Source: Bacillota bacterium (GTDB lineage Bacteria > Bacillota > UBA4882 > UBA10575). Taken from it: 38,337 nt of DNA. Of this stretch, positions 1-5,031 are shown piece after piece. Numbering within the stretch: the stretch's first letter is position 1; every line of letters begins with the position of its first letter. Both the position numbers and the translations under genes were made by a program. The stretch covers positions 1 through 38,337 of the forward strand of contig JAAYGG010000012.1 of the NCBI GenBank assembly GCA_012727895.1, in the 5' to 3' direction. Below the pieces are notes generated by a model. It made no database searches, was not told the origin of the DNA, and worked only from the letters and a program-made list of their open reading frames with translations.

Positions 1-32
1 TAATTTACATATTGATAGGGGACTAGTTGCAT

Positions 33-2036
33 ATGGATAGAATCAAAAATTATCTGAAGTGCTTGGTATTATGTGACTCCAAATTTATCACTATTGTGTC
101 AATTGTATTAAATTTAGTATCAATATCAACAGTTCTTGTTATGCCATTAATAAACTCCAGAATTATCGATAGTTTTGGAACCAATATTATTTATACCTAT
201 ATAAAATATTCTTTAATTTTGTTTATTGTTAAGTGTCTCGTTGATTTCTTTACCAGTGTGCTAAAGAAAAGAAACCAGGTCAATACTAATGCCAAGTTAA
301 AGGTTATGATTTTAACAAATTGGGCTTGTTTACGGGATTCGCATAGGATGTCGGTTGAATCAGGGAAGATAATAAACTTGATCGAGAATGATTGCGATAT
401 TGTCGCAAATATAGCTACCAATTCTTTGTCAGATATGATATCAATTATTGTTAATTTAATATTAAGCATTATTATTGTTAGCAGGATCCATTATTTGTTT
501 TTGCCTATTATATTATTCTTTTCGGTTGTAGAAATAATGCAGATCCAAAAAAAAATATATAAGTGGCAAGCCAGCTATGAATCCCAACATACTGAATCGG
601 TCGCCGATATTAATTCATGGGTTCTAGGAATGCATGATCGATATGAATATCTGTGTGTTTTTAAACTAAAGGATTGGGCTATAAATAATATACTGGGTAA
701 AATATACAAAAATTATAAAATAAGGACAAAGCAAAATACTCTTTCTGCTCTTTCAGGCCGTATAAGCTATTTACCCAAGTGGCTGTGTGAAAGTGTTATT
801 TATATCATTGGCGGTTGGCTGGTAATCAATGGGGATATAACCCTTGGCCTATTATTTGCAAGTCACAGTTATGCTTCTAGATTCTTGGATGCCTTTAGGG
901 ACGCAAGCGAATTTATAAAAAATACCTTCATAAATATGAACGCGTATGAGCGAGTATCCTCGTTTTTAGATTATAATTTAATCGCGAAGAAACTTGGAAT
1001 TGTTCAACCAGTTGGCACTATAAAGACCAATAATGAATTGGTTGTAAAAAACGTTGATTTTCAGTATAGTACATCCAAAAAGATCTTTGAAAATCTTAAT
1101 TTTACATTACCCTTGAAAGGAATCGTTTTACTTCAGGGTGATAATGGGAGTGGGAAAAGTACTTTAATTAAATTAATCATGGGTTTAGAAATACCATCAA
1201 AAGGAGATATTTTAGTTAATAACATAAATACTAAAGATTTTACTTTTGAATTTATCCATAGAAATTTTTCCTGTGCGTTTCAAGAAGGAGTGCTTTTTAA
1301 CGATACCCTTTATAATAATATTTCAGCATTTAATCCGGTTCAGGAGGAAACAATCAAGGGCTTGGTAAGAAAAATTTTCCCCGATTATGATAGAGATTTT
1401 AATGACCTTATTAATGCTTTTGGTGATGGGGTATCAGGCGGACAAGCAAAAAGAATCTTACTCAGCCGGGCTTTATATAAAAAAGCTAACATTCTCATTC
1501 TGGATGAGGTTGATACTGGAATAGATTCAAGTGGGTACAGTAATATGATATCTATTTTAAAGAGTATGTCTAAGAATTGTTTGGTCTTAATAGTTTCGCA
1601 CCAAAAAAGTGATGTACAAGATATATTTTGGGATTATAAACTGCATATAAATAATAATACTGTTAATTTAATTGATACGAAAGAGGAATATATTTCATTG
1701 CTAACAAGGACAAGCCATTTATTGAAAAGAAATGGTAAAACACAAACCGTTGAGTTTACGACAAGAGGTATTAGTATGCTACCCCTAATCAACCCGGGTG
1801 ACATTGTCGGGATAGAGATAGGGGACATTGAATTAGAAGTGGGTGATATTGTACTCTTTAGAATAATGAAGACGATTTTTTTACACAGAATAATAATGAT
1901 AAACAGGGAATCTTTCATTTGTAAAGGTGATAATAATTGCTTTACTGAGTCAATTGATCGTGAGGATATAATCGGTAAAGTGCTTTATATCAAAAAAACA
2001 AACCCTAATCACCCATTCGGACCCCCAGAGAATTAA
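33..2036 (+). CDS. ABC exporter (permease + ATPase) fused to a C-terminal S26 signal-peptidase-like domain
   Basis: Half-size ABC exporter of 667 residues. The N-terminal ~310 residues carry several hydrophobic spans (about 20-45, 60-75, 138-172, 255-280). The nucleotide-binding domain follows: Walker A GDNGSGKST (369-377), signature VSGGQ (467-471), Walker B ILILDEVD (487-494) and H-loop SHQ (522-524). From about residue 575 an S26 peptidase-like domain follows, with GISMLP (Ser581 as candidate nucleophile), two GD turns, FLHRI (His618) and KGDNN. A Ser/His pair is the SipW/ER-type arrangement rather than Ser/Lys. No membrane anchor precedes it, so it should sit on the cytosolic side with the ATPase. 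ATG33 is preferred over TTG27 because AGGGGA (17-22) lies 10 bases upstream. AT-rich codons mark it as foreign. Export of a processed peptide is inferred from family context. Confidence 0.88.
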   Translation: MDRIKNYLKCLVLCDSKFITIVSIVLNLVSISTVLVMPLINSRIIDSFGTNIIYTYIKYSLILFIVKCLVDFFTSVLKKRNQVNTNAKLKVMILTNWACLRDSHRMSVESGKIINLIENDCDIVANIATNSLSDMISIIVNLILSIIIVSRIHYLFLPIILFFSVVEIMQIQKKIYKWQASYESQHTESVADINSWVLGMHDRYEYLCVFKLKDWAINNILGKIYKNYKIRTKQNTLSALSGRISYLPKWLCESVIYIIGGWLVINGDITLGLLFASHSYASRFLDAFRDASEFIKNTFINMNAYERVSSFLDYNLIAKKLGIVQPVGTIKTNNELVVKNVDFQYSTSKKIFENLNFTLPLKGIVLLQGDNGSGKSTLIKLIMGLEIPSKGDILVNNINTKDFTFEFIHRNFSCAFQEGVLFNDTLYNNISAFNPVQEETIKGLVRKIFPDYDRDFNDLINAFGDGVSGGQAKRILLSRALYKKANILILDEVDTGIDSSGYSNMISILKSMSKNCLVLIVSHQKSDVQDIFWDYKLHINNNTVNLIDTKEEYISLLTRTSHLLKRNGKTQTVEFTTRGISMLPLINPGDIVGIEIGDIELEVGDIVLFRIMKTIFLHRIIMINRESFICKGDNNCFTESIDREDIIGKVLYIKKTNPNHPFGPPEN

Positions 2037-2040
2037 AAAA

Positions 2041-2235
2041 CTATTTTTTATTGTCAGAATAAATTAACAACAATGTTTGATCTGAAATTAAGATTTCACA
2101 AGGGTTTTTGGATTGGAGGTTCAGGCAGAACGTCCTCTTTGAAAAAAAGGGAGGCCTCCTCGCGTTTTCTATTTCTGCGAGAGATTTGTCCCTTCTGGGA
2201 ATTATAAAATTGCAATTATTCATGTCTTTGCGCAT
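2041..2235 (-). CDS. Small ORF of unknown function (64 aa), possible cluster peptide
   Basis: The ATG overlaps the last codons of the CBM9-like frame upstream, so translational coupling is possible, but no independent strong ribosome site is seen. The product is polar and basic with three cysteines in its second half and no clear signal peptide or domain. It ends four bases from the end of the convergent ABC gene. It could be a precursor peptide of the neighbouring export system or simply an open frame. Nothing in it matches a precursor family I recognise. Confidence 0.25.
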   Translation of the reverse strand: MRKDMNNCNFIIPRRDKSLAEIENARRPPFFSKRTFCLNLQSKNPCEILISDQTLLLIYSDNKK

Positions 2236-2750
2236 AGTTGTATTAAATTCATGTTAAAATAGTCACACTTATCCATCCAAGGCTGCAAATAGTATTTTCC
2301 TGTTGACCAGCTTAATATATGCTCTTCATGATAAAGACTAGCTTTCGCTGTTCTTATTGTAACATCAAAAAAGATCACATCATTATTCTTAGGTGTAAAA
2401 TTTAGATAATTCCAAGGTAAAACTACTGCGACACTAAACCTTTTCTGATTATATTCTGTCCCAATCTCAATAGGAATATATCGACCCTGAGTATACTCTT
2501 GCTGCCACATGAATGCTTTGTGTTTTCCTGATTTTAAAGGCTTTATGAATATCACCTTAACGAATTCATTTCTGTCTAAGCCAAATAACAACTGATAACC
2601 AAACTGATATACTTGTTGTTTATTCTGAAACTTGTCAATACTGATTCTATGAGTAAAATAGAAGTTCTGTTCGTTCCAGCTGATACTAAATTGGGGATAT
2701 AGATCATCTGTTGAGTATTGATTAGTTGTTTTCTCAAGAAGGAAGGTACT
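2220..2750 (-). CDS. CBM9-like domain reading frame with no normal start codon
   Basis: An open frame of 176 codons runs from just after a TGA (2751-2753) to the TGA at 2220. There is no ATG, GTG or TTG until TTG at 2591, which would cut the domain. The frame reads like a family-9 carbohydrate-binding/DOMON fold: an opening strand ISWNEQNFYFTHR, then VYQFGYQLLFG, SVAVVLPWNYLNFTP, DVIFFDVTI and ILSWS, the last three matching the usual ‘IPW..L’ and ‘lsWs’ pattern. It lies in the +1 frame relative to the nucleotidyltransferase immediately upstream and overlaps its last codons. It could be a C-terminal domain of that protein separated by a frameshift (mutation or recoding), or a separate gene with an unusual start. 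The domain assignment is from pattern only. Confidence 0.5.
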   Translation of the reverse strand, partial: STFLLEKTTNQYSTDDLYPQFSISWNEQNFYFTHRISIDKFQNKQQVYQFGYQLLFGLDRNEFVKVIFIKPLKSGKHKAFMWQQEYTQGRYIPIEIGTEYNQKRFSVAVVLPWNYLNFTPKNNDVIFFDVTIRTAKASLYHEEHILSWSTGKYYLQPWMDKCDYFNMNLIQLCAKT

Positions 2751-3957
2751 TCAAATATTGTTTATTTGCATAGATGGAAGGCATATTATAATATATATTT
2801 TCATGCTTTATCAATTCCGAGTTTGTTTTGTAAAAGCACTTGTATATTTGTTTTTTTTTGGCTTCTTCCCTAGACCTTTTTATGATTTTTTTCTGCTCTT
2901 CTCTATAAGAAAAAAGCCTGCGTTCAATGTATGATTCCCAATTCTCCGCATGCCAATGATAGTAATTAAAATGCCTGTCTGGTTTTAATTTAAGCGTTGA
3001 AAATTTTCCATATATTCTTTCGGTAAGAGAAATTGCTCTATATATTAAATCATTGATACCAAATTCTTCAATCCTCCTTGTTATTTCGTTTTCTTTGTTT
3101 GGTAAACTTAAATAAGATTCTCTTATATCCATAAATTGTTTTACGTTAAGTTGTTTTATGATTTTTATAGAAGGGGGTTGAAGGGGAATAGGAGTTTTCG
3201 ATACCAGTAATTTTATATGACTTTCTAGGTGCGCGCAGCTATGAATAAAAAGGTCTATTTCATCTGGTACTAATACCATTTCATTGTTTAATTTCAAGGG
3301 TTTAGCATTGTTAAAAAGCTTACTAAGATCAATCTCGTATTCACCTCTATATTGGTGTAGCTCAACAGTATAAAAATCTTTCATATATATGAGCAAGTGA
3401 GCAGTATTTGTTTCTGTGATTTCCTGATCTTCAACCAATTGTCCTAAAAGATTATAAGCTTTATAGCCATCACTGATTAGGAGTTCATGTGCTTTTTTTA
3501 TATTATTAGGTGCGATAAGTAAATCCAAATCTCCGAAAATTCTTCCTCCAGCGCATTTATATACCAATTTTGCTATTCCTGGTCCTTTTAAAACAACAAA
3601 ACTTATATTGTGTTCACTAAATAAACATTGCAGACGATCTAGTTCTTTATACATCTTTTTATTGTGCGCCTGTGCCATTATATTTGCAAAAATCATAGTT
3701 TTTACAAATTCCTTATCCGGAATGCTAGTATAATTTTTTATTAATGGATTATGCAATAAATGATAGCCAACAATTGAAGCCACTTGATGTTCTTGAGCTA
3801 TCATTGCTAAATAATCATAATTTAGCCCATCATTTATTAAATTCTTAAGCATTTTTATATTGTTTTTACTTATATCTTGACGGGCGAGTAAGAGCAAAGC
3901 CTTTTCTTCAGGCTTGAGCATTGCCTTTGATCCTTTTTTCAAAACAAAGATACTCAT
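2734..3957 (-). CDS. Nucleotidyltransferase family protein (NTP_transf_5 type)
   Basis: A 407-residue protein with the nucleotidyltransferase core: VVLKGPGIAK (121-130), then GGRIFGDLDLLI (137-148) whose Asp143/Asp145 form the metal-binding DxD pair. The rest is helical with a Lys-rich C-terminus. This family (PF14907) has no settled biochemical role but recurs in lasso-peptide and related RiPP clusters beside ABC exporters, B2-type proteases and S24/S26 peptidases, which fits the exporter opposite. The start ATG has AAAGGA seven bases upstream. Base composition is as AT-rich as the ABC gene and unlike the trp operon. The C-terminus stops abruptly inside the CBM9-like frame, so the gene may originally have been longer. 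Confidence 0.82.
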   Translation of the reverse strand: MSIFVLKKGSKAMLKPEEKALLLLARQDISKNNIKMLKNLINDGLNYDYLAMIAQEHQVASIVGYHLLHNPLIKNYTSIPDKEFVKTMIFANIMAQAHNKKMYKELDRLQCLFSEHNISFVVLKGPGIAKLVYKCAGGRIFGDLDLLIAPNNIKKAHELLISDGYKAYNLLGQLVEDQEITETNTAHLLIYMKDFYTVELHQYRGEYEIDLSKLFNNAKPLKLNNEMVLVPDEIDLFIHSCAHLESHIKLLVSKTPIPLQPPSIKIIKQLNVKQFMDIRESYLSLPNKENEITRRIEEFGINDLIYRAISLTERIYGKFSTLKLKPDRHFNYYHWHAENWESYIERRLFSYREEQKKIIKRSREEAKKKQIYKCFYKTNSELIKHENIYYNMPSIYANKQYLKYLPS

Positions 3958-4604
3958 ATTTTTTCCTTTCTTTTAAATTAAAGAAAAGCTTAATGGTTAT
4001 AACATTTTACCTAAGTTCTCAAATTATAACTATGATCCTCAAAAAAGTCTGACAATTGGTTAATAAATAGAGATATTTATCTTGCTATTCTCTTTATAGT
4101 TACAGTTTTGCCGGGAAAAACCTGGCCGCTAGGATGTGACTGACATGTCCTTCGGCACTACAGCTTGACCCCATTTTCTATTCCGTCCCAGTTGCGCTTA
4201 ATATACCCGATGGTCTCTTCTTGGCTTTTCGTCAGTGCGCCATAAGGCTTCATGAAGATGAGCCAGGACTGCCTGTTTGTTTGGGATTTGATCTCCCGGT
4301 GGATCAGCATCTTAAGCCCGGGCGCATGCGCGATAGCCGTTTAGATATATTTTTCTTAATGATACTTGTCTAGGATAAAAATGGTCTGCGGCGGTAAGTA
4401 TTATGTCCAGCCCGGGGGGATTCATTCAATTGGCTGAATGTCAGGTTCCTCTTCTTTTTTCCATGAAATACTTCTTGCAAAAACCTACAGTAATTTTATA
4501 CTAACCTTTATAGAGGGCTAGCCCGCCTTTGACTGCAAGGCTTTTTCTCAAGAGGGCTTTCGTCCTGGCTTCTTCAGTTTACCGGCAAAAGAGAGGAAAA
4601 GAGC
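3958..4604. other. Intergenic decay zone between AT-rich island and small basic gene
   Basis: No intact gene is seen in these ~650 bases. The first ~130 bases are AT-rich and presumably hold the promoter of the minus-strand nucleotidyltransferase gene; no box pair there has a convincing spacing. From about 4110 the composition switches to the GC-rich type of the rest of the window, marking the likely island border. The GC-rich part includes one coding-like remnant (listed separately). A short perfect inverted motif with AAAAA loop (CCGGG/CCTGG) near 4113 is too small to interpret. Confidence 0.5.
4158..4340 (-). pseudogene. Coding remnant, perhaps the C-terminus of an ISL3-like transposase
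   Basis: A 61-codon minus-strand open frame between two stops has host-like codon composition and no start with ribosome site. Its middle reads RQSWLIFMKPYGALTKSQEE, which loosely resembles the ‘R..L..k....Lt..Q...’ segment of ISL3-family transposases. That match is weak and from memory. It is best viewed as a broken gene end stranded at the border of the AT-rich island; the alternative is a chance open frame. Confidence 0.3.
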
Positions 4605-4831: not shown

Positions 4832-4861
4832 TATACCAATCAATCCTAAGATAAACACCAA

Positions 4862-4953
4862 GAGCCGAGAGCCGGCGAACGCCGGCGGAGTTGAGAACAG
4901 GAATTAAGTTTAGCGGAGCAGAGACGAGCCGAGGGTGCGTGCGTACGCGTGAG
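4862..4953 (+). promoter_or_regulatory. TRAP-type binding array of GAG/TAG triplets in the trp leader
   Basis: GAG or TAG triplets start at 4862, 4867, 4888, 4893, 4911, 4916, 4921, 4926, 4931 and 4951. Two near-matches, GAA at 4901 and AAG at 4906, keep the phase. Most repeat every 5 bases, i.e. triplet plus 2-base spacer. The two larger gaps are filled by hairpins (GCCGGC..GCCGGC at 4871-4886; a GCGT..ACGC hairpin near 4937-4948) that would keep the triplets close. Ten perfect plus two imperfect sites suit the 11- or 12-subunit ring of the tryptophan-activated RNA-binding protein MtrB. In Bacillus, TRAP bound to such an array lets the downstream terminator form. Confidence 0.85.
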
Positions 4954-4960
4954 GCATGAT

Positions 4961-4991
4961 AAAGCCGGACCCACGGTGGTCCGGCTTTTTT
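4961..4991 (+). terminator. trp leader attenuator terminator
   Basis: GCCGGACC (4964-4971) pairs with GGTCCGGC (4978-4985) around a 6-base loop, extended by AAA/TTT pairing, and is followed by TTTTTT. It sits between the triplet array and trpE, as expected for attenuation. The CCGGC runs in the first triplet-gap hairpin could pair with its 5' arm to form a competing antiterminator; that part is inference. Confidence 0.88.
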
Positions 4992-5031
4992 GTACCCTTC
5001 CGGTTCTCCTTCTCCCGGAAAGGAGAAAAGG

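Follow-up and report, generated by a model that had tools for sequence, protein, structure and literature searches.

An ABC exporter fused to a C-terminal S24/S26 peptidase domain in a Bacillota bacterium: a possible leader-processing exporter and its unfused relatives

The window, the 38,337-nucleotide stretch of a Bacillota contig analysed here, begins at base 1 of its contig, and 32 bases precede the gene under study. This open reading frame runs from an ATG at 33 to a stop at 2034-2036, with an in-frame TTG at 27 as an alternative start, and encodes an ABC exporter that continues into a peptidase domain (Table 1). The original prediction had described an ABC exporter with a built-in, cytosolic S26-type peptidase in place of C39, and its coordinates for the frame, Ser581, His618 and KGDNN proved correct; the interpretation as a whole is partly supported, this architecture and its RiPP setting by the domain searches, by scores against soluble and membrane enzyme profiles and by the gene neighbourhoods of free-standing relatives. 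The protein is an ABC exporter by its order of domains, a transmembrane domain (TMD) followed by a nucleotide-binding domain (NBD) with Walker A, signature, Walker B Glu and H-loop. Pfam and NCBIfam scans of the frame found no C39 domain, and the first hydrophobic span begins at about residue 11. The closest NCBIfam exporter match is a peptidase-containing family, and the alignment lies only outside the N-terminal part of that family.

Table 1. Features of the fused gene, its neighbour and the precursor-like peptides of related clusters (positions in the window unless a locus is named)
Feature	Position	Strand	Basis
Fused ORF, ABC exporter with C-terminal S24/S26 peptidase domain, 667 aa	33..2036	+	ORF list, Pfam
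ABC_membrane (TMD), residues 21-285; no C39 domain preceding	93..887	+	Pfam
ABC_tran (NBD), residues 353-492, E 4e-23	1089..1508	+	Pfam
Walker A GDNGSGKST, residues 369-377	1137..1163	+	motif inspection
ABC signature VSGGQ, residues 467-471	1431..1445	+	motif inspection
Walker B/D-loop ILDEVDTGID, residues 489-498	1497..1526	+	motif inspection
H-loop His523	1599..1601	+	motif inspection
S24/S26 peptidase domain, residues 556-650	1698..1982	+	Pfam Peptidase_S24, TIGR02228, Foldseek
Ser581 of GISMLP, predicted nucleophile	1773..1775	+	motif inspection, soluble S26 alignment
His618 of LHRI, predicted general base (ER-type, no Lys)	1884..1886	+	SEC11A alignment; invariant among homologues
Asp633 of KGDNN (631-635), predicted third catalytic residue	1929..1931	+	SEC11A alignment; invariant among homologues
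NTP_transf_5 nucleotidyltransferase, 407 aa	2734-3957	-	Pfam, E 5e-35
NTP_transf_5 continuation, out of frame	2220..2733	-	39% identical to L089 residues 437-607 (~170 residues)
61-aa precursor-like peptide of related clusters	L045 9335-9529; L088 11945-12139; L089 5312-5542; L119 7005-7196	- (all)	

At the junction the linker (about residues 550-560) is short and clean and both halves are intact: the exporter tail reaches the region where it usually ends, and right after it the N-terminal helix of the S26 domain starts. A full-length AlphaFold model of the fused protein was poor (pLDDT 43). Within the frame, at 1682-1700 (+), a Shine-Dalgarno-like AGAGGA is followed by an in-frame TTG (1698) that could also yield a free S26 domain.

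The C-terminal part scores as an S24/S26 peptidase, as had been proposed: Peptidase_S24 (PF00717) gives 26.6 bits with the full protein and 30.3 bits with the C-terminus alone, both above the curated cut-off of 23.3. The NCBIfam model of archaeal/ER-type signal peptidases, TIGR02228, matches the C-terminal 132 residues alone with 48.7 bits (E 7e-13), narrowly missing its curated cut-off of 51.85. All the catalytic motifs of the ER/SipW type, GxSMxP, HR and KGDN, are found in the domain, and the predicted nucleophile falls in a column that is mostly Ser among soluble homologues, with Cys in two. In a sequence search of the PDB the top match was human SEC11A, which is weak (E 0.04) and nonetheless aligns SM.P, HR and KGDNN. 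A model of the C-terminus built from a three-row alignment (pLDDT 66 overall, about 74-82 across most of the core) shows one helix and a beta-rich domain, for which Foldseek returned S. aureus SpsB, LexA, UmuD', SipA and SEC11A from the PDB with probability 1.00 and query TM-scores of about 0.5; this model, of moderate confidence, supports an S24/S26 fold.

Hydropathy analysis of the stretch that links the NBD to the S24/S26 domain revealed no strong hydrophobic segment, and the weak maxima at 591-624 coincide with strands of the peptidase domain itself. The membrane anchor of ER/SipW-type signal peptidases is thus absent from the domain, as predicted. Because no membrane span separates the two, the peptidase should lie on the NBD side of the membrane, which in the established topology of exporters is the cytosol. 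Two profiles, one of 16 free-standing soluble S26 proteins and one of 20 membrane SipW-type enzymes, with the window protein in neither, were used for comparison. Leave-one-out scoring splits the two groups, all membrane members scoring in reverse order to the soluble ones, and the window domain, with 78.1 bits against the soluble profile and 55.2 against the membrane profile, shows the ordering of left-out soluble members. By these profile scores the domain groups with the soluble S26 clade and not with SipW. The premise that normal S26 enzymes cut outside the membrane likewise needs qualifying, since a soluble, anchor-less S26 clade exists as separate genes (100-190 aa) in the clusters described below. 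Two soluble S26 proteins, L111 2282-2737 (-) and L092 9460-9939 (+), have a Cys where the nucleophilic Ser would stand (GDCMSP and GNCMVP).

The opposite strand next to the fused gene carries, as had been noted, an NTP_transf_5 nucleotidyltransferase. It is 42% identical to a 609-aa homologue at locus L089, its closest match lying in a cluster of one genus, g75, and the remainder of the homologue continues out of frame beyond its end (Table 1). The gene is apparently frameshifted near 2735, genuinely or through a sequence error, which leaves room for either an indel artefact or a decaying cluster. The GC content is 29-34% over 1-4000 and about 54-69% between 5000 and 11500, and BLAST did not find the S26 domain in 28 other genomes of the class; together the two observations fit horizontal acquisition. 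The border at which GC falls from about 60% to about 31% lies just upstream of a trp operon and is a likely island edge. A GC-rich hairpin with a T run at 4860-4995 (+), before the anthranilate synthase gene, resembles a T-box or attenuator terminator, with no Rfam match at the gathering score.

A search to the left of the window for precursor, B1/B2 and PqqD-like genes had been proposed; that sequence is absent from the assembly as part of this contig. The 97%-complete assembly yielded no PqqD, B2 or HprK-like gene and no precursor of the g75 type, the HprK-like and precursor searches having been run without a positive control; nor was a double-glycine precursor identified. Of the neighbours typical of soluble-S26 clusters, NTP_transf_5 is present; PqqD and HprK-like genes were not found, and the contig ends just before the fused gene. 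The contig end also leaves room for a missed gene of the lasso-cluster B2 transglutaminase-like peptidase.

Searches for the same fusion in other genomes, which the original prediction had suggested, returned none: HMM searches of about 520 genomes and a single scan of 84,980 with a narrow pattern found no exporter-S26 fusion besides the window gene. The profile used in the HMM searches had been built with the window domain included, together with six of the loci treated below. Among 398 genomes of the phylum, strong matches were 99-187 aa long, with the sole exception of the window's own, which lies in a frame of 669 aa; no exporter fusion turned up in two additional classes of 73 and 83 genomes, some of the genomes being shared between sets. 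The scan of the genome collection with a DNA pattern from Walker B to GxSMxP gave 13 places and no fusion, two of them being adjacent S26-ABC clusters (L109 and L111); this is a weak negative, as the pattern was narrow (a GAT Asp codon and a linker of 52-62 residues). An earlier scan of the collection with a four-row alignment (one pattern) confirmed nothing, tblastn against plasmids gave exporter halves only, and viral contigs scanned with the S26 domain, an alignment and the exporter gave no matches. BLAST with the C-terminal domain against 29 genomes of the class and 398 of the phylum returned mostly SipW-type membrane enzymes; two matches in frames of 685-688 aa (G060 and G281) were both EF-G and due to chance.

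The relatives of the peptidase domain provide a result that is independent of the fusion and stronger than it. Soluble S26 genes go with peptide clusters marked by PqqD and HprK-like genes, and often with their exporters: among more than 20 loci, nearly all have PqqD and/or HprK-like genes, many also have NTP_transf_5, radical SAM (rSAM) and exporter genes, and the exporters beside them lack C39. At five SipW-type control loci (L052, L054 and L094-L096) PqqD, HprK-like, rSAM and NTP_transf_5 genes occur in none, an unrelated ABC ATPase lying near two. Exporter and S26 genes overlap or directly adjoin each other at L048, L049, L050, L051, L109, L111, L120-L123 and L125. At L048 the S26 gene begins 14 nt before the end of the exporter gene; at L051 HprK-like, PqqD, S26, ABC and NTP_transf_5 genes run in one direction with overlapping ends; and at L111, an unfused counterpart of the window gene, ABC and S26 genes overlap by 41 nt in the same run as a Cys-rich, precursor-like 65-aa peptide, radical SAM, HprK-like and NTP_transf_5 genes. 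L109 and L111 are biased toward adjacency because the pattern that found them requires an ABC gene beside GxSMxP. The loci L120-L126 and L128 were picked by the S26 profile alone; each of them has an HprK-like or a PqqD gene, and in five of the eight an exporter adjoins S26. One soluble S26 locus, L090, has none of the partner genes, and in the g75 clusters S26 is accompanied by NTP_transf_5 with no exporter directly adjacent. In genome G462 the peptidase is fused to PqqD, a leader-binding domain of RiPP systems; this gene (L117 8765-9499 (+), the same as L115 1369-2103) neighbours a second PqqD, two radical SAM, an HprK-like and an NTP_transf_5 gene. Both the recurrent pairing of S26 with an exporter and its fusion to PqqD suggest a role in binding and removing leaders.

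The RiPP setting suggested for the window gene is supported by its relatives, in which PqqD, HprK-like, rSAM, NTP_transf_5 and ABC genes cluster repeatedly and precursor-like peptides are present in some. Four g75 clusters encode a 61-aa precursor-like peptide with conserved Cys between the PqqD and radical SAM genes, ending in RPFRxCxNxxRTHxGxxCFS (the first Arg sometimes Lys). These genes have Shine-Dalgarno-like sites, and their changes, summed over pairs, are distributed 91/60/179 over the codon positions, a third-position bias as expected of a coding gene. At L109 1947-2081 (+) a 44-aa ORF with the end KPGKPGKPGRPGRP lies just before the HprK-PqqD-S26-ABC-NTP_transf_5 run and is a possible precursor.

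Several known systems share features with the fused protein. Like the PCAT/AMS exporters (PCAT1, ComA, NHLM_micro_ABC1), it joins a cytosolic-side peptidase and an ABC exporter in one polypeptide, and by analogy it may share their presumed function, leader removal and export of the matured peptide. In PCAT1 leader cleavage by the peptidase domains takes place on the cytosolic side and precedes movement of the core (PMC6959990; see also the review PMC10885120). The PCAT peptidase is an N-terminal C39 Cys enzyme while that of the window is a C-terminal Ser-His enzyme of the S24/S26 type, and since the defining C39 domain is absent the gene was not placed in the PCAT family. With signal peptidase I of the ER/archaeal/SipW type (Sec11, SipW) the domain shares motifs, the TIGR02228 match and fold, but it is anchor-less and cytosolic and scores higher with the soluble profile. 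With the free-standing S26 proteins of PqqD/HprK-like/NTP_transf_5 clusters it shares the domain, the kind of neighbours and, often, an exporter without C39 alongside, yet in every relative examined the peptidase is separate from the exporter. Paeninodin/pseudomycoidin-type lasso clusters likewise combine an HprK-like kinase and a nucleotidyltransferase with a RiPP precursor and an exporter, and the tailoring of lasso peptides by these two proteins (PMC8498205) is a precedent for their role in S26 clusters; lasso leaders are removed by B1/B2, whereas the window genome yielded no B2 and most S26 loci have rSAM instead. The model of the nickel-SOD maturation protease (TIGR02754), also a short S26-type peptidase, matches the window and L111 domains weakly, but the scores are far below its cut-off and the context is unrelated. 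A 2023 review of RiPP leader proteases (PMC10885120) nowhere mentions S24, S26 or signal peptidase, and nothing relevant to S24/S26 enzymes as RiPP leader peptidases appeared in the literature searched, whose scope took in few subscription papers.

The data presented above have led us to propose that the window gene probably encodes a PCAT-like processing exporter in which a cytosolic serine peptidase of the ER/SipW-type S26 family, fused from cluster genes, removes the leader. The exporter half would be an ordinary homodimer-type ABC exporter whose cytosolic C-terminus bears the soluble S26 peptidase, with Ser581, His618 and Asp633 as its catalytic residues. A modified precursor, presented by its leader, would dock at the exporter; cleavage of the leader by the S26 domain would take place on the ATP side, followed by export of the core. 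The domain would thereby play the role of the N-terminal C39 in PCATs, although its fold is unrelated and it lies at the other end of the polypeptide. Leader cleavage, its coupling to transport and a precursor in this organism are what we infer, with PCAT1 as the analogy for leader removal at the exporter. The fusion would have arisen when an exporter gene and an S26 gene lying side by side were joined in a peptide-maturation cluster of the PqqD/HprK-like/NTP_transf_5 kind, itself probably acquired horizontally. Since the soluble S26 clade already occurs as separate genes in such clusters, the window gene represents a fused version of two genes that repeatedly occur together, rather than an isolated innovation. 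Counting against this proposal are the contig end close to the gene, with no PqqD, B2, HprK-like or g75-type precursor found in the assembly, the frameshifted neighbour, which may mark a decaying cluster, and the failure to find a second fusion. In addition, the g75 clusters lack an adjacent exporter and L090 lacks the partners, so S26 need not act with export.

The order of domains is firm as far as the sequence itself goes; whether the organism really has it depends on one draft contig, in which at least one frameshift seems to lie close by. Since related loci have exporter and S26 genes that overlap in different frames (14 nt at L048, 41 nt at L111), a single indel could fuse them, and the fused frame might be a sequencing or assembly error or a very recent mutational accident, a one-base indel joining genes that normally make separate proteins of the same pathway. 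The frameshifted NTP_transf_5 gene and the lack of a second fusion beyond this one draft genome would fit such an event; the intact halves, the short clean linker, the retained exporter tail with the S26 helix directly after it and the lack of a recognisable residual out-of-frame stretch make it quite unlikely. We also consider it unlikely that the fused gene and NTP_transf_5 are non-working leftovers of a cluster gained by horizontal transfer, surviving with neither a precursor nor partner genes: the fused frame retains all its NBD motifs and a complete set of catalytic residues, and genes missing from the assembly may sit in unassembled sequence past the contig end, even though the low GC content, the frameshift, the failure to find PqqD, HprK-like and B2 genes and the absence of the domain from 28 other genomes of the class would all suit a remnant.

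The S26 domain might instead process another substrate, a regulatory peptide or, in the manner of LexA/UmuD, itself, uncoupled from export. The S24/S26 fold does include self-cleaving enzymes and enzymes with no part in export, LexA and UmuD' are among the Foldseek matches, and the g75 clusters pair S26 with NTP_transf_5 where no exporter adjoins, but the protein has no DNA-binding domain, and the repeated direct pairing with exporters together with the S26-PqqD fusion indicates leader binding and removal, making such a function distinctly improbable. The processing exporter proposed above may also exemplify something wider, which we regard as a serious possibility a little short of probable: soluble S26 would be the leader peptidase of broad, so far undescribed PqqD/HprK-like/NTP_transf_5 (often radical-SAM) RiPP systems, mostly seen in the phylum of the window, and would work with an exporter lacking C39, the window gene being its fully fused form and an independent, non-homologous counterpart of PCATs.

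In RiPP pathways found by genome mining, the step that is lacking is often leader removal, and if the soluble S26 enzymes are the leader peptidases of these clusters, a testable protease becomes available for many orphan systems. The window gene would then be a new variant of the processing-exporter principle, and its fused form, if real, would show leader cutting and export joined by means of an unrelated fold, a second way beside that of C39.
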